Source: a virus
IMG/VR virus record: IMGVR_UViG_3300027969_000082
Location: 1-64,000 of that record
Direction: 5' to 3' (one strand)
Length of the DNA: 64,000 nt
In this document: one piece after another, positions 167 to 62,496 of the stretch
How positions within the stretch are numbered: the stretch's first letter is position 1
Layout: the number at the start of each line of letters is the position of its first letter
Notes under the pieces: model-generated
The model's input: only the letters and a program-made list of their open reading frames with translations
Told to the model about the DNA's origin: nothing
Database searches by the model: none
Program-made: the position numbers and the translations under genes

Positions 167-1261
167 ATGTTGGACGCACTAAAGAATTTGTTTGAAAATA
201 ATGTGATTTCGGAAGAGATCCAAGAATCTATTGAGAAAGCCTGGGAAGCTCGCATCGTCGAGAATCGCACCCAAGTTACTCAACAACTACGTGAAGAATT
301 CGCTCAACGCTATGAACATGACAAACAAGTTATGGTCGAAGCAATTGATCGTATGTTGGGAGACCAACTACGTGAAGAGATTTCACAATTTGTAGAAGAT
401 CGTAATCAATTAGCAGAAGCTAAAGCACGTTATACAGTAAAAATGCATAACGATGCACAGTTAATGAAAGAGTTTGTTACTCGTCAATTAGCTAGCGAAG
501 TTAAAGAATTACACGAAGATCAAGTACAAATGGCTTCTAAGTTTCACACACTTGAGAAGTTTGTAGTAGAAGCATTGGCTCAAGAAATCGCAGAATTCCA
601 TACAGACAAGCAAGACATTGCAAAAACTAAGGTACGTTTGGTACGCGAAGGCCGTCAGGCTCTAGCTAAGATGAAGGAACAATTTATTGTCCGTGCCGCT
701 AAACTTGTCGAATCTACAGTTGAAAAGACTCTAAACAAAGAGATTGGTCAATTGAAAGAAGACATCGAAGCTGCAAGACGCAACGACTTTGGTCGTAAGT
801 TGTTCGAAGCATACGCTAGCGAATATCAAAACAGTTATCTAAACGAAAAATCAGAAACAGCTAAATTGCTCAAAGTCATAGACAAGAAAGATTTACAAGT
901 TGCCGAAGCTCATCACGCTGTAGCACAAGTAACTAAAGTCCTAGAAAGCAAAGAAGCACAAGTTAAAGCTCTAATGGAGAGCAAAGAACGTCAAGAAATC
1001 ATGAACGAACTAGTAGCACCGTTGGCTAACACCCAAAAAGCTATTATGATAGAATTACTTGAAAGTGTACAGACCGCAAAATTACGTAATAGTTTTGACA
1101 AGTACATTCCGGCAGTCATTGCTGGCGAAGCTCCACAGAAGAAGAAGGCACTAGTAGAGGCAAAAGAAGTCACAGGCAACAAAGAAACCCACAGCGTCGG
1201 TAGCAGCGAGCACGAAAGCAACATTTTCAACATGCGTCGTCTTGCTGGAATTAAACATTAA
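167..1261 (+). CDS. gp22: Prohead core scaffold protein, gp22-like
   Basis: This 364-aa protein is almost entirely alpha-helical and highly charged (long Glu/Lys/Gln/Arg-rich stretches without proline), as expected of the T4 gp22 internal scaffold that shapes the prohead and is degraded by the prohead protease. Near residues 294-322 it carries the LLESV...LRNSF..Y.P pattern typical of the conserved C-terminal part of gp22, followed by a low-complexity tail. It starts at ATG with AGAGGAG upstream and is followed after 14 bases by the major capsid gene, the canonical 22-23 order. Several Leu/Ile-x-Glu sites suitable for gp21-type cleavage are visible. Identification rests on composition, the C-terminal motif and gene order. 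Confidence 0.85.
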   Translation: MLDALKNLFENNVISEEIQESIEKAWEARIVENRTQVTQQLREEFAQRYEHDKQVMVEAIDRMLGDQLREEISQFVEDRNQLAEAKARYTVKMHNDAQLMKEFVTRQLASEVKELHEDQVQMASKFHTLEKFVVEALAQEIAEFHTDKQDIAKTKVRLVREGRQALAKMKEQFIVRAAKLVESTVEKTLNKEIGQLKEDIEAARRNDFGRKLFEAYASEYQNSYLNEKSETAKLLKVIDKKDLQVAEAHHAVAQVTKVLESKEAQVKALMESKERQEIMNELVAPLANTQKAIMIELLESVQTAKLRNSFDKYIPAVIAGEAPQKKKALVEAKEVTGNKETHSVGSSEHESNIFNMRRLAGIKH

Positions 1262-1275
1262 TTAGGAGAAAATAA

Positions 1276-2445
1276 ATGTCAGAACTACTAACAGGCCGTT
1301 GGGCAGAAACAAAAGAAGCACTTCTTGAAGGCCTTCAAGGCACTAAGAGATCTGTAATGGCATCTACACTAGAGAACACACGTAAGTATCTAGCTGAGAG
1401 TGCAAGCACAGGTGCTACTTCTGCCGGAAACGTCGCAACATTAAATCGTGTGATCCTTCCAGTGATCAGACGTGTCATGCCAACAGTTATTGCTAACGAG
1501 TTGGTCGGTGTACAACCAATGACTGGTCCAGTTGGTCAAATCCATACGCTACGTGTTCGCTACAGCGATACACTAAGCGGTACATATGGTGCTACTGCTG
1601 GTGAAGAAGCATTAAGCCCGTTCAAGATTGCAGAAGGCTATTCTGCTAACAATGGCGCTGCTGCTACTGCTGCATCAACTGCATCCTTAGAAGGTGCTGC
1701 TGGTAAGCGTATGAGCATCCAGATCTTGAAACAAACAGTTGAAGCTAAGACACGTAAGTTGTCAGCTCGCTGGACATTTGAAGCTGCTCAAGATGCACAA
1801 GCCCAACAAGGTATTGACATCGAAGCAGAAATCATGGCTGCTCTTGCACAAGAGATCACAGCTGAGATTGACCAAGAAGTTCTTGGTTCTTTAGCAACTT
1901 TAGCTGGTTCACAGAACTTGCAGGCTTATAACCAAGCTGCTGTTTCTGGTACTGCTACTTTCGTTGGTGATGAACATGCTGCTCTTGCAGTTATGATCAA
2001 CCGCGTTGCTAACACAATCGCCCAACGCACACGTCGTGGTGCAGGTAACTGGGCAGTTGTAAGCCCAACAGCATTGACAGTTCTTCAGTCTGCTACTACA
2101 AGCGCATTTGCTCGTACAACAGAAGGCACATTCGAAGCACCTACAAACACTAAGTTTGTTGGTACATTGAACAATGCTATGAAGATCTATGTAAACACTT
2201 ATGCAACATCTGATGATGTATTAGTTGGTTACAAAGGTGCTAACGAGTCTGATGCAGCAGCATTCTATTGCCCATACATTCCATTGATGAGCAGTGGTGT
2301 TGTTCTAGATCCAGCAACATTCGAACCAGTCGTATCATTCATGACACGTTATGGTTATGTAGAGTTAAGCAACACTGCTTCTTCTCTAGGTAATGCAGCT
2401 GACTATCTAGGTAAAGTTACATTAGCTGGTCTAGCATTTAGTTAA
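1276..2445 (+). CDS. gp23: Major capsid protein, gp23-like
   Basis: The 389-aa product has the hallmark T4 gp23 segment ANELVGVQPMTGPVGQI near residues 73-90, followed by the ALRVRYS-like strand and the E-loop region. It forms the hexamers of the capsid. An N-terminal propeptide probably ends at YLAE41/S42, which fits the (L/I)-x-E rule of the T4 prohead protease, leaving a mature protein of about 348 residues. T4 gp23 has 521 residues, so this is a compact version, probably lacking part of the insertion domain. The start has AGGAGAAA upstream, the gene follows gp22 closely, and a strong hairpin stands just after the stop. Confidence 0.95.
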   Translation: MSELLTGRWAETKEALLEGLQGTKRSVMASTLENTRKYLAESASTGATSAGNVATLNRVILPVIRRVMPTVIANELVGVQPMTGPVGQIHTLRVRYSDTLSGTYGATAGEEALSPFKIAEGYSANNGAAATAASTASLEGAAGKRMSIQILKQTVEAKTRKLSARWTFEAAQDAQAQQGIDIEAEIMAALAQEITAEIDQEVLGSLATLAGSQNLQAYNQAAVSGTATFVGDEHAALAVMINRVANTIAQRTRRGAGNWAVVSPTALTVLQSATTSAFARTTEGTFEAPTNTKFVGTLNNAMKIYVNTYATSDDVLVGYKGANESDAAAFYCPYIPLMSSGVVLDPATFEPVVSFMTRYGYVELSNTASSLGNAADYLGKVTLAGLAFS

Positions 2446-52521: not shown

Positions 52522-53283
52522 ATGTCAGACAATCCACAACAGGTTAAACAGCAAGTTTTTGATTATTGCCGCGCTATGCTAGGTGACGGCATGATTGACG
52601 TTGAGCTTGATCCAATTCATTATGAAACAGCGTTAGATCGTGCATTAACACGATTCCGCCAACGTAGTCCGAATGCAGTAGAAGAAAGCTACAGTTTTTT
52701 AACCCTTGAGAAAGACAAAAATGATTACATACTTCCTGCAGAAATTATTAATGTTCAGTCTGTTTTTAGAAGAACACTGGGATCAAGAACTGGAGGAGGA
52801 ACTGGTACAAACTTTGAACCTTTCAATCTTGCGTACACTAATACGTATCTCTTAAACTCAACAATGATGGGTGGCATTGCTACATACTTTATGTTTGCCA
52901 GCTATCAAGAAATGATAGGTAAAATGTTTGGGGCCTATATTGAGTTTCAATGGATCCCATCTAGCCGTACTATTAGAATACTACAACGTCCATTTAGTGA
53001 AGGCGAAGTAATCGGCCTGCGTACTCAGAATTTTAGACCTGACTATCTTATCATTGAAGACATATATGCTAAACAATGGATACGTGATTATACTCTAGCT
53101 AACTGTAAGATTATGTTAGGCGAAGCACGTAGCAAGTTTCAAAGTATCGCTGGCCCGCAGGGAGGCGGCAGTTTAAACGGTAATGATTTAAAATCAGCAG
53201 GTAAAGAAGAACTAACGGCACTAGATAAAGAATTAGAAACCTTAATCAGTGGTGGAACTGGCTATACATTTGTTATTGGTTAA
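52522..53283 (+). CDS. gp13: Neck protein gp13-like
   Basis: The 253-aa product resembles gp13 of T4-like phages: QVFDYCRAMLGDGMIDVELDPIHYETALDRALTRFRQRS at the N-terminus, YILPAEIINVQSVFRR, the IATYFMFASYQEMIGKMFG segment, and YAKQWIRDYTLANCKIMLGEARSKF near residues 194-218. gp13 forms the head-proximal neck ring with gp14 and closes the filled head. T4 gp13 is slightly longer (309 aa). It is divergent from gp14, separated by the back-to-back late promoters. It is followed after two bases by a small basic protein gene. Confidence 0.85.
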   Translation: MSDNPQQVKQQVFDYCRAMLGDGMIDVELDPIHYETALDRALTRFRQRSPNAVEESYSFLTLEKDKNDYILPAEIINVQSVFRRTLGSRTGGGTGTNFEPFNLAYTNTYLLNSTMMGGIATYFMFASYQEMIGKMFGAYIEFQWIPSSRTIRILQRPFSEGEVIGLRTQNFRPDYLIIEDIYAKQWIRDYTLANCKIMLGEARSKFQSIAGPQGGGSLNGNDLKSAGKEELTALDKELETLISGGTGYTFVIG

Positions 53284-53285
53284 CT

Positions 53286-53477
53286 ATGCGAGTAACTGAA
53301 ATTATTGCTGAAAATTTTGCTGACGGTCGCAACCCACAAGATAAAGGCGACGCTAAACGTCACGGTATTAATACTAAGGCTAGTGTGAGTAGTCTACGTA
53401 AAACAGCCAAGCAAGGCGGACGTAAGGGACAATTAGCCCATTGGTTAGCTAATATGAAAGCAGGAAGAGCAAAATGA
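53286..53477 (+). CDS. Small basic protein with capsid-targeting-like N-terminus
   Basis: The 63-aa product is rich in Lys and Arg and begins MRVTEIIAE/N, the same M[KR]V.EII.E pattern as the next two genes. This fits the T4 capsid-targeting signal of internal head proteins (MKTYQEFIAE/A in IPIII), which is cut by the prohead protease after (L/I)-x-E. The remainder (GINTKASVSSLRKTAKQGGRKGQLAHWLANMKAGR) resembles a short helical nucleic-acid-binding protein. If the signal is real, the protein would be packed inside the head and perhaps injected with DNA. Similar short proteins occur in other phages; their function is unknown to me. Confidence 0.6.
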   Translation: MRVTEIIAENFADGRNPQDKGDAKRHGINTKASVSSLRKTAKQGGRKGQLAHWLANMKAGRAK

Positions 53478-54019
53478 AAGTATTTGAAATAATTAATGAA
53501 TCTGCTGCATGGCGCAGAAAAGAAGGTAAGAGCAAAGCAGGTGGACTAAATGCCAAAGGTGTTGCTAGTTATCGTCGCGAAAATCCGGGCAGTAAGCTAC
53601 AGACAGCAGTTACTACTAAACCTAGTAAACTAAAAGCAGGATCTAAAGCTGCTAAACGTCGTAAATCATTCTGTGCTAGAATGGGCGGAGTTAAAGGTCC
53701 AATGAAAAAACCTAACGGCAAACCAACACGTAAAGCACTGGCGTTGAGAAAGTGGAATTGTGAAAGTGTAGAGCATATGGTAGAAATGATCTTAGAAAAT
53801 ATGGATCATGACAAAGACAATCAAGCAGTACCTGAATTAAAGGCAGCATTGATTGCTCAAAAGACAAAACTACAAAAGGCAAGCGACGACGAAGTCTATG
53901 ATATCATTGATAACATAATGACACGCATTGCCAAGACACACGGCATCAGCGGCCAGAAGTTGCACGACATGTGGGTTGATCAATATGATCAAGTGCCCGA
54001 TACTTGGATAATGAAATGA
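53474..54019 (+). CDS. Basic protein with capsid-targeting-like N-terminus and conserved Lys/Arg-rich core
   Basis: The 181-aa product starts MKVFEIINE/S and then has a strongly basic core: LNAKGVASYRRENPGSKLQTAV, KPSKLKAGSKAAKRRKSFCARM and GVKGPMKKPNGKPTRKALALRKWNC. This core is common among phage proteins of unknown function. The C-terminal part (about residues 95-181) is a separate helical segment with mixed charge. It overlaps the preceding gene by ATGA and the next by ATGA, so the three form one translation unit. A DNA-binding internal head protein is a reasonable guess given the N-terminal motif and charge; the direct evidence is limited to that. Confidence 0.6.
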   Translation: MKVFEIINESAAWRRKEGKSKAGGLNAKGVASYRRENPGSKLQTAVTTKPSKLKAGSKAAKRRKSFCARMGGVKGPMKKPNGKPTRKALALRKWNCESVEHMVEMILENMDHDKDNQAVPELKAALIAQKTKLQKASDDEVYDIIDNIMTRIAKTHGISGQKLHDMWVDQYDQVPDTWIMK

Positions 54020-54393
54020 AAGTACACGAAATTATTACCGAAGCTAAAGGTATGAAGAAAATTGATGATACACATAAGTCTGCTATGAAAAACGCAATGA
54101 CGTTCCCGTCAATGAATATGAGTACTGGAAGTGCATATTTAGGATGGCGCATGGGCATTGCAATGGCAGGCGCACCAACCTATCCAACTAAGATGAATGC
54201 TGATAATTGGATTGGAGGTGATCCGCTATTATCAACTTATACTAAAGAAGAAATGGATATTGTCAATGCCGCAGCCAAGGCTGTAGGTGCCGGATCCGCT
54301 CAAAATTGGAGCGGTGACCGTAGTAAAGAAATTGCCGGAACTAATGTAGCAAGTCCGGTTGCCAAACGCAAATTGAACAAATACGGAATATAA
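54016..54393 (+). CDS. Small protein with capsid-targeting-like N-terminus
   Basis: The 125-aa product starts at the ATG at 54016, giving MKVHEIITE/A, which overlaps the preceding stop codon (ATGA). An upstream TTG would add four residues and break the shared motif. After the motif come KKIDDTHKSAMKNAMTFPSMNMSTGSAYLGWRMGIAMAGAP and a TKEEMDIVNAAAKAVG helix. It is less basic than its two neighbours. I do not recognise the family. The shared N-terminus and operon suggest it acts in the same place, possibly inside the head. Confidence 0.55.
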   Translation: MKVHEIITEAKGMKKIDDTHKSAMKNAMTFPSMNMSTGSAYLGWRMGIAMAGAPTYPTKMNADNWIGGDPLLSTYTKEEMDIVNAAAKAVGAGSAQNWSGDRSKEIAGTNVASPVAKRKLNKYGI

Positions 54394-54398
54394 ATTTC

Positions 54399-54427
54399 TT
54401 GACATTGTAATCTAATTGTTATATACT
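54399..54427 (+). promoter_or_regulatory. Sigma-70-type promoter for the dNMP kinase gene
   Basis: TTGACA at 54399-54404 and TATACT at 54422-54427 are separated by exactly 17 bases, a near-perfect host housekeeping promoter. It is 22 bases before the kinase ATG (AAGGAG in between). It would give early, host-polymerase-driven expression inside an otherwise late region. Confidence 0.8.
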
Positions 54428-54448: not shown

Positions 54449-55147
54449 ATGATTATAGGTGTGTGCGGTTTTATTGGTTCAGGCAAAGATACAGTTGCCG
54501 ATTATCTAACTAACTTTCATGGTTTTCGACGAGAATCTTTTGCCAACAGCCTTAAAGATGCAGTAGCACAAGTCTTTGGTTGGGATCGAACCATGCTAGA
54601 AGGCCGTACCAAACAAGCTCGTGAATGGCGTGAACAGGTAGATCCTTGGTGGTCAGAGAGACTTAACATGCCTAACTTAACCCCACGTTGGGTACTGCAA
54701 TATTGGGGTACAGAAGTATGCCGACGAGCATTCCATGATGACATTTGGATTGCTGCCTTAGAAAACAAACTGCGTAATAGTACAGATGATATTGTTATCA
54801 GTGATTGCAGATTCCCTAACGAAATCAAGTCAATTAAAGATGCTGGTGGAATCGTTGTACGAGTCATTCGCGGCTCCGAACCCGAATGGTACGATGCGGC
54901 AATTAGCCTTAATAAGGGCGACCGTGGTAATATGAATTGGGCATTAAGTAGAGCTAAAATAGAAGAATTAAAAATTCATGCTAGCGAAACAGCATGGGTG
55001 GGAACAGAATTTGATGCAGTGCTAGATAATAATTCTACTATTGAAGACCTATTTGCCCAGGTTAGAAATCTGGTTTCAGATCTCCCTGTTTCCACTGAAC
55101 CCCTTCCCTATGTAGAATCCTCTGACAGTTTGCACACACTGTCTTAA
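54449..55147 (+). CDS. gp1: Deoxynucleoside monophosphate kinase, gp1-like
   Basis: The 232-aa product has a P-loop at residues 7-15 (GFIGSGKDT) and the T4 gp1-type sequence around it (VCGFIGSGKDTVADYL, FANSLKDAVAQVFGWDR). LTPRWVLQYWGTEVCRR and DIVISDCRFPNEIKSIKDAGGIVVRVIR are conserved in dNMP kinases of T4-like phages. It phosphorylates dNMPs to dNDPs for phage DNA synthesis. It has its own sigma-70-type promoter. Its last 86 bases overlap, tail to tail, the end of the antisense HNH gene, and the last 20 or so residues (about SDLPVSTEPLPYV...) are encoded in that overlap. Confidence 0.9.
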   Translation: MIIGVCGFIGSGKDTVADYLTNFHGFRRESFANSLKDAVAQVFGWDRTMLEGRTKQAREWREQVDPWWSERLNMPNLTPRWVLQYWGTEVCRRAFHDDIWIAALENKLRNSTDDIVISDCRFPNEIKSIKDAGGIVVRVIRGSEPEWYDAAISLNKGDRGNMNWALSRAKIEELKIHASETAWVGTEFDAVLDNNSTIEDLFAQVRNLVSDLPVSTEPLPYVESSDSLHTLS

Positions 55148-55403
55148 GATTACTTGGACGAGAATTATTTAGATTTCCGTCCATGTGAAATACATTAAAC
55201 TGTTCAGTAAATTTAGATTTAAATCCACATTTATCGCATACAGATTTCATGCGGTATCCATCCCTGTACCACTTAGGTTCTCCACTACGTATCCCACCGT
55301 GGTGTAGACACGCCTCACATCGCTTACGATAGTAAGTGCGTCCGTTCTTAACATAGTTAATAGCCGCGGGTCTAAGCCCGCAAATACACAAGGGTCTTGC
55401 CAT
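55062..55403 (-). CDS. HNH homing-type endonuclease
   Basis: Starting at the ATG at 55403 (MARPLCICGLRPAAINYVKNG) the product has 113 aa; a longer frame would begin upstream of the promoter. Four CxxC pairs (CICG, CEAC, CDKC, CANC) indicate zinc binding. The C-terminal part, FNVFHMDGNLNNSRPSNLKTVCANCQRILH, is an HNH nuclease motif with H-D, N and H in the expected order. Free-standing enzymes of this kind are frequent in T4-like phages and spread by cutting DNA of related phages that lack them. It lies antisense between the kinase and the sheath gene. A TATAAATA element stands only four bases before the ATG. Confidence 0.85.
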   Translation of the reverse strand: MARPLCICGLRPAAINYVKNGRTYYRKRCEACLHHGGIRSGEPKWYRDGYRMKSVCDKCGFKSKFTEQFNVFHMDGNLNNSRPSNLKTVCANCQRILHREGVQWKQGDLKPDF

Positions 55404-55407
55404 AGTG

Positions 55408-55415
55408 TATTTATA
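55408..55415 (-). promoter_or_regulatory. T4-type late promoter (TATAAATA) for the HNH gene
   Basis: On the minus strand TATAAATA is separated from the HNH ATG by four bases (CACT). Transcription from it would start at or beside the ATG, giving a leaderless or nearly leaderless message. Confidence 0.6.
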
Positions 55416-55472
55416 CCGGACCTTTTTGACCCCTTTTCTATGGTGTATTAATAGCATTTTTTATCCAAATAC

Positions 55473-61893: not shown

Positions 61894-62496
61894 ATGAAAT
61901 CGTTTACAGAATACTTAATGGAAAGCAAAGAAGAGAAGAAATACTCTTTTAAAATTAAAATCGCCGGAGATCTTCCAGAGAACTGCGAAGATGTTATGGA
62001 AACTGCTTTACAAAAATATCAAGTAGCTAAGTTTACAAAGACTAAGACTACCCCTATACAAGCTAAACTTCGTGACTTTCCTACAATGGAAAATGCACAG
62101 GTTAGTATTTTTGATGTTGAATTAGAATATCCAACAACTAGTGCTGTATTAACTAGCTACATGTTAGAGCAAACTGGCCTAACAGCTGAACGTATTAAAG
62201 TGCGTAGTCCATTGGAAGATGCAGAAAGCGAATTAAATGCAGAGCATCTTGAAGTTGATAACAAAGCACTATTGACACAAGATTACCAAAAAGAAAATAA
62301 TCAAAATACTGTTGGTGACAAAGGCGTTAGTAACTTTCTTAAAGACCTAGCAAAGATTAGAAAAGAACAAGTACAATACAAAGGTGTAAACGATGCTATC
62401 CTAGCAAAAAAGGCACCTAAAGAAAAAGCACAAGATCAAGCTAAACCAAGTGCTGGCACAAGTCCAATAGGTTCTGCTAAAGGAAAAACAAAATGA
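61894..62496 (+). CDS. Conserved T4-like phage protein with capsid-targeting-like N-terminus
   Basis: The 200-aa product begins MKSFTEYLME/S, which matches the T4 capsid-targeting signal MKTYQEFIAE/A in length and in the (L/I)-x-E cleavage rule. The middle part is an alpha/beta domain (YSFKIKIAGDLPENCEDVMETALQKYQVAKFTKTKTTPIQAKLRDFPTMENAQVSIFDVELEYPTT). The C-terminal third is Lys/Glu/Gln-rich and disordered. It sits between the terminase genes and overlaps the next gene by ATGA. Similar proteins are present in marine T4-like phages to my recollection, without known function. A prohead core or internal protein is possible. Confidence 0.6.
   Translation: MKSFTEYLMESKEEKKYSFKIKIAGDLPENCEDVMETALQKYQVAKFTKTKTTPIQAKLRDFPTMENAQVSIFDVELEYPTTSAVLTSYMLEQTGLTAERIKVRSPLEDAESELNAEHLEVDNKALLTQDYQKENNQNTVGDKGVSNFLKDLAKIRKEQVQYKGVNDAILAKKAPKEKAQDQAKPSAGTSPIGSAKGKTK

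Follow-up and report, generated by a model that had tools for sequence, protein, structure and literature searches.

Within the window, by which we mean the whole 64,000-nucleotide stretch of DNA analyzed here and which covers the larger part of a 73,131-base phage record that encodes T4-like head and tail proteins, three small genes lie between the gene for the neck protein and a dNMP kinase gene (54449-55147). The first of these genes starts 2 bases past the neck-protein gene, neighboring members of the trio share 4 bases, and the neck gene and all three are presumably co-transcribed. Sheath and tube genes are also found in the window. Seven other loci (L004, L007, L008, L018, L019, L036 and L041) show the same succession of neck gene, DUF6321 gene (gene 2), gene 3, dNMP kinase gene and sheath gene, although L004 stops short of the last of these. 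In another phage group gene 3 is located near a gene for the NFADG module, the body of the gene 1 protein. A strong sigma-70-like promoter match (11/12) is present at 54399-54427, in the gap that separates gene 3 from the dNMP kinase gene. An HNH-endonuclease-like ORF with a weak family match, possibly a homing gene, is encoded on the minus strand at 55062-55457, between the dNMP kinase and sheath genes. The coordinates of the features are collected in Table 1.

Table 1. Features of the putative head-cargo locus and of the head genes discussed in the text.
Feature	Position	Strand	Remarks
Scaffold (gp22-like) core protein	167..1261	+	Presumed docking partner of the signals
Major capsid protein gp23	1276..2445	+	PF07068, E=8e-98; predicted gp21 site YLAE/SAS after residue 41
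Neck protein / head-tail adaptor	52522..53283	+	phrog_211; directly upstream of gene 1
Gene 1 (putative cargo)	53286..53477	+	63 aa; signal MRVTEIIAE and 54-residue basic NFADG module
Signal MRVTEIIAE	53286..53312	+	Predicted gp21 cut after E9
Gene 2 (putative cargo)	53474..54019	+	181 aa; signal followed by basic DUF6321 domain and helical acidic module
Signal MKVFEIINE	53474..53500	+	Predicted gp21 cut after E9
DUF6321 piece	53501..53797	+	Residues 10-108; 26 K/R, 6 D/E; ends at second predicted site, MILE/NMDH
Helical acidic module	53798..54016	+	Residues 109-181 (NMDHDKD...DTWIMK); 9 K/R, 13 D/E
Gene 3 (putative cargo)	54016..54393	+	125 aa from ATG at 54016; signal MKVHEIITE and body without recognized fold
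Signal MKVHEIITE	54016..54042	+	M1, I7 and E9 invariant in 19 aligned relatives
Gene 4 (candidate cargo)	61894..62496	+	200 aa; MKSFTEYLME/S; phrog_14802
Tag [IML]R[RK]LAG[IL]	167-1261; L003:751-3147; L171-L173; L042; L098; L116; L136		Possibly a core-docking peptide

The first-pass annotation of this DNA had noted that the three overlapping genes begin MRVTEIIAE/N, MKVFEIINE/S and MKVHEIITE/A and that a fourth begins MKSFTEYLME/S, and these ORFs and starts are as it described. It had further called the bodies unrelated apart from the signal and two of them basic. We likewise found no evident similarity among the bodies, and K/R residues outnumber D/E residues by 13 to 3 in the mature gene 1 protein and by 26 to 2 in the DUF6321 part (residues 10-96) of the gene 2 protein. 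The third protein is mildly basic (15 K/R and 9 D/E) and the fourth is neutral (30 and 29). The signal had also been described as being of the same size as that of T4 internal proteins; in three of the genes it has 9 residues and not 10, but the spacing of the critical positions, counted back from the glutamate, is kept. Specifically, V3, I6, I7 and E9 of the three genes match Y4, F7, I8 and E10 of T4 IPIII, and the fourth gene has F4, Y7, L8 and E10 at the equivalent positions. The gp21 consensus, [LI]xE, closes all four signals (IAE/N, INE/S, ITE/A and LME/S), and the phage's own gp23 carries LAE/S.

A pattern drawn from mutational work on T4 IPIII (K/R at residue 2 and hydrophobic positions -6, -3 and -2 ahead of an E at 0) is fitted by 4 of the 46 genes on the 73-kb record, compared with a mean of 0.07 when the residues within each N-terminus were shuffled (maximum of 2 in 2000 trials). 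Similarly, a survey of the genes of the record for M[KR]..E.[LI].E, as proposed in the first-pass annotation, returned 3 matches where 0.006 were expected. The codons of the shared residues differ (ATT/ATA, CGA/AAA), which argues against a recently copied DNA stretch, and across related contigs the nine-residue signals occur in 160 distinct 27-base versions with mixtures of GAA/GAG and of ATT/ATA/ATC.

Gene 1 matches at least 550 stretches of viral contigs, and no match was found by tblastn in cultured phages. The conserved block of this family, NFADG[RK]NPQDKGD...HWLANMKAGRAK, is preceded either by nothing more than a short signal (MRISELLE/NFADG, MRIHELLSE/NFADG) or by long, unrelated bodies to which it is fused. 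When similar upstream sequences among the matches listed were collapsed, 44 distinct upstream contexts remained. In all 44 of these contexts the residue before the module is E; the contigs with NFADG or DUF6321 are related to one another, so that such counts are not independent, and part of the conservation of this glutamate could come from common descent of the module. One of the residues L, I, V and M occupies position P3 in 39 of the 44 contexts, as against 19% at P4-P12 (binomial p=3e-23, again among the matches listed). The residues and codons at P3 vary, P2 and P4 are unconstrained, and the background frequencies are 6% for E and 1.6% for [LIVMF]xE. Since P3 is largely confined to aliphatic residues and yet freely varied among them, with many codons, the site appears to have been kept and not simply inherited by descent, as would be expected of a gp21-type [LI]xE site (PMC9026906).

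Some of the long NFADG proteins contain Pfam nucleotidyltransferase, cytidine deaminase, GH19 or cytidylyltransferase-like domains, and 4 of 10 longer relatives carry a Pfam enzyme domain over the cut-off. Protein 1 may also resemble a cyanophage RPGRVKRAGASC domain, and such variants follow E/NFADG in three of the related loci (L015, L016 and L022). Two very long mosaic proteins, L151:3179-7588 (1470 aa) and L137:2003-4651 (883 aa), have 22 and 11 [LIVM]xE sites, respectively. Both include a module of the NFADG type as well as a domain that is NMNAT-like or of the nucleotidyltransferase kind, and they are candidate injected polyproteins.

The gene 2 protein is a true member of the DUF6321 family (PF19846; E=7e-22, 78.3 bits against a curated cut-off of 28.5) and matches phrog_4689 (E=5e-30); the family corresponds to PHROGs 4689, 3477 and 727. 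We found no mention of DUF6321 in the literature searched, outside which most subscription papers lay. Relative to the family, gene 2 adds the signal in front and the helical module behind. A glutamate directly precedes DUF6321 in 20 of 28 contexts and lies one residue earlier in 3 more; five metagenomic contexts are without the E site. Among T4-like phages and metagenomic relatives the domain is mostly preceded by [LIVM]xE, regardless of the upstream part (IISE/SAAW, ELLDE/SAAW, ELYE/TAAW), and in the marine T4-like cyanophages S-P4, S-SM1 and P-TIM68 the glutamate is kept with a P3 residue other than L or I. The T7-like connector (PF12236) gave no match on any contig and none in the controls, and the comparison with T7-like phages therefore rests on named members. 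In three of these, Eistla, HTVC031P and S-TIP37, DUF6321 is a free-standing gene near the scaffold and capsid genes and is without the E site; the domain is likewise without the site in HTVC104P, a 54-kb phage considered beside the named T7-like set. The separate DUF6321 gene of T7-like Pelagibacter phages lies between the scaffold and capsid genes, and that of S-TIP37 follows soon after the scaffold gene (L179-L181). This position suggests an old role of DUF6321 in the head.

The helical module of gene 2 starts after MILE and recurs behind other bodies, again after a glutamate (MIIE, SVYRE, YNVGE, DSVYE). With predicted E sites at the borders of the signal, the basic DUF6321 piece and the acidic helical piece, the gene 2 product is probably a mini-polyprotein that would be cut twice. 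Comparison of the gene 2 protein with solved structures gave nothing credible, and the AlphaFold models of the gene 3 and gene 2 proteins were of low confidence (mean pLDDT of 46 and 51, respectively). For gene 3, an alignment of 19 sequences, with identity to the window protein down to 29%, showed that the signal is kept and that the stretch after E9 is variable. A further 33 matches came from contigs gathered for the other genes, some of them repeat copies of one place. The family was found in metagenomic phages only: tblastn gave no relative in cultured phages, and a search of PHROGs gave one weak match only.

The signals themselves come in different flavors, M[KR]VxEII in the group to which the window belongs and MRAxEF[IVL] or MKIxELL elsewhere. 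Agreement at the variable positions was 0.596 between unrelated proteins of one locus, 0.587 between homologous gene 3 proteins of different loci and 0.488 between unrelated proteins of different loci. Reshuffling within families gave 0.501 +/- 0.021 (permutation p=0.001 with 57 loci, an optimistic value because the loci are related). These comparisons suggest that the choice of signal variant tends to track the phage and not the protein family, the direction expected if a signal must fit the core of its own phage rather than its own protein. The gene for gp21 is off the contig, which begins 166 bases before the scaffold gene, just downstream of the place of gp21 in relatives. Three NFADG-carrying contigs encode gp21 (PF03420), with gp23 starts that are nearly identical to that of the window; their gp23 sites are HLAE/SATAG, YLSE/SATAG and YLLE/SPSAG, compared with YLAE/SASTG in the window. 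A second short tag, [IML]R[RK]LAG[IL], was also seen repeatedly. The scaffold protein of the window and those of relatives carry it at their extreme C-terminus, a 798-aa protein has it both internally and close to its end, and in the form MDELxxIKRLAGI it is N-terminal in a small gene near NFADG genes.

The relative of the fourth gene in Pseudomonas phage PA5oct, EST35_0202, is annotated as a virion protein detected by ESI-MS/MS and keeps MKSF, F4 and Y7, but is without the cleavage glutamate E10. In T4 IPIII, residues 4 and 7 serve targeting and residues 8 and 10 serve processing (PMC9026906). Because position 10 affects processing and not targeting in T4, the PA5oct relative may still be targeted even if no cut is made at this point. 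Loss of the glutamate in this relative makes gene 4 a weaker candidate for a cleaved protein than the other three.

Short motifs arise by chance, and a loose form of the pattern matches unrelated cyanophage genes; together with the loss of the glutamate in PA5oct, this could be taken to mean that the resemblance to a capsid signal is incidental, the N-terminal motif being no more than a common short helix or an effect of translation start. We regard this as very improbable, given the excess of matches over the shuffled sequences, the synonymous codon variation within the signal and the presence of [LIVM]xE at internal module borders, where there is no start codon.

Published virion proteomes of T4-like cyanophages were used for an experimental comparison. 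Virions of S-CREM2 contain a SAM hydrolase, a kinase, NMNAT and a small unknown protein (PMC10665884, Table 3); these proteins start MKDFDSFLEE, MKRFDAFLTE, MKNFSSFLTE/A and MKDLHSFLTE, respectively. S-CREM2 gp136, encoded beside the small terminase gene, starts MQTFSMFFSE. NMNAT has also been detected in virions of S-SZBM1 (PMC9146016) and S-SM1 (PMC3037559). The NMNAT of S-SZBM1 starts MRFRQFIIE/A, and such a start is present in 4 of 5 further cyanophages, the exception being Bellamy as annotated. A first pattern, modeled on the window and with E/Q before the hydrophobic pair, had zero matches in S-CREM2 and was dropped. With a pre-set loose pattern the relation to virion detection gave p=0.09 in S-CREM2 and, in S-SZBM1, p=0.65 with 1 of 7 detected. 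When K/R was required at residue 2, in a tighter and partly post hoc pattern, the share detected was 5 of 7 for proteins with the signal and 77 of 430 for the rest (p=0.003). S-SZBM1 gp191 and gp192 have clear signals and yet are absent from the proteins detected in virions. The association between signal and virion in cyanophages is therefore modest. The T4-like capsid-targeting starts of the virion enzymes (L174-L177 in S-CREM2, and L228-L232) go unmentioned in the accessible parts of the source papers. If the starts act as signals, they would account for the NMNAT, SAM hydrolase and kinases in cyanophage virions, for which the authors could not exclude contamination.

The first-pass proposal of a targeting and cleavage signal on unrelated bodies thus gains support from the module borders at [LIVM]xE, the E-less T7-like relatives, the tendency of the signal to follow the genome and the signal-bearing enzymes of cyanophage virions. 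That the signal is separable from the body is indicated by the 44 NFADG contexts among the matches listed and by DUF6321 standing alone in T7-like phages; the fourth gene is less clear in this respect. Taken together, the relatives provide strong indirect evidence, at the level of sequence, for T4-type capsid targeting and gp21 cleavage of the three proteins, and the products of the three small genes, together with dozens of unrelated relatives that bear this type of signal in phages from other lakes and seas, are very likely to be phage head cargo.

These observations provide the basis for a model, to which we assign a probability of roughly 0.8, in which the three are internal head proteins that use T4-type targeting, are cut by gp21, lie with their basic bodies on the DNA and are ejected with it. 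The proteins would be made late, together with the neck protein. The short amphipathic N-terminal signal would hold each of them to the scaffold core in the growing prohead. During prohead maturation gp21 would cut past the glutamate of [LIVM]-x-E, which is E9 in all three, and probably cut the gene 2 protein again after E108. Cleavage would free the signal, and the mature basic or mixed bodies would stay in the head, with the NFADG module and DUF6321 most likely bound to the packaged DNA. The mature bodies would then be ejected with the DNA, like the T4 internal proteins. We infer docking on gp22 and the actual cleavage; DNA binding is suggested by charge, and ejection by analogy with T4.

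Alternatively, the proteins could be targeted to the prohead and cut, but serve only as components of the assembly core, like T4 gp67 and gp68, which build or size the head, with nothing useful ejected. The genes do lie within the late structural block, DUF6321 adjoins the scaffold and capsid genes in T7-like phages, DUF6321 and NFADG are very conserved, and T4 IPIII itself aids head assembly (PMC9026906). However, the mature modules are basic, whereas the core proteins examined are acidic (T4 gp67, and the acidic ORFs before gp21 in relatives), and sibling NFADG proteins carry deaminase, nucleotidyltransferase and GH19 domains with no evident role in building a head. We therefore consider this alternative unlikely.

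Less likely still is that the proteins are injected to counter host defenses, in the manner of T4 IPI, IPII and IPIII, which block type IV restriction enzymes. T4 Ip1-3 all inhibit GmrSD variants (PMC12373910); the signal type and the unrelated small bodies are as in these proteins, and the body of the third family is diverse. In contrast, neither a defense target nor a homology was found, and across many phages the bodies of DUF6321 and NFADG hardly vary, with no sign of fast divergence. Such conservation argues against an arms-race inhibitor for both. Because these modules are conserved, widespread and carried on many bodies, and because DUF6321 lies beside scaffold and capsid genes in T7-like phages, DNA binding or head structure fits better. 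The anti-defense function suggested in the first-pass annotation is thus not supported, and for the two basic bodies it is less likely than DNA binding; the diversity of the third family leaves room for a possible function of this kind there.

The model of injected internal proteins has clear parallels in known systems. The T4 proteins IPI, IPII and IPIII, like those of the window, have a short signal whose positions -6, -3 and -2, counted from the glutamate, are hydrophobic, an [LI]xE site and unrelated, often basic bodies (PMC9026906), and T4-like head genes are common to both, in the window on the same contig. The window signals, however, are one residue shorter; the bodies are unrelated to the T4 proteins and consist of shuffling modules that are also found inside longer proteins with several predicted cuts, and the genes sit between the neck gene and the dNMP kinase gene. 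T4 Alt undergoes gp21 cleavage at each of its ends (PMC9026906), and the cyanophage virion enzymes comparable to it (NMNAT/T4-GC190, SAM hydrolase and an APH-like kinase) have MKxFxxF[LI]xE-type starts; the window bodies, by comparison, are small and without a recognized enzyme domain. In the giant phages SPN3US and phiKZ, head proteins are cut after glutamate by a gp21-like protease and diverged bodies have N-termini in common (PMC5694885), but these propeptides mostly exceed 100 residues, compared with 9 in the window. Polyvalent proteins are multi-domain phage proteins, with enzyme domains that include lysozymes and peptidases, for which packaging and injection have been predicted (PMC5512222). 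The longer NFADG relatives are similar to such proteins, whereas the window genes encode one or two modules and no recognized catalytic domain. The [LIVM]xE sites between the modules of the NFADG relatives predict that these, unlike polyvalent proteins, are separated inside the head.

T4-type capsid targeting is already known; what is new is a shuffling set of head-cargo modules, of which we found no description in the literature searched (again with most subscription papers outside the search). Based on these results we speculate, at somewhat better than even odds, that cargo loading of this type is a general system among the T4-like phages of lakes and seas. Mosaic precursors would carry signals of 9-10 residues that co-vary with the head core of the phage in question; their exchangeable modules, split by gp21 sites, would include a mobile basic module that brings its own cut site and is placed on dozens of bodies, and gp21 would act as a polyprotein processor for injected cargo. 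Deaminase, nucleotidyltransferase, chitinase-like and NMNAT-like bodies represent the enzyme-type cargo in this scheme, and the window genes would be its minimal forms, with one or two modules. The many short signals described here, matched with gp22 and gp21 in some relatives, are available for tests of cargo recognition. If the scheme is true, the signal and the [LIVM]xE borders would constitute a reading rule for uncultured T4-like phages, one that picks out, among their many unknown proteins, those carried inside the head and thus the first to reach the cell interior.
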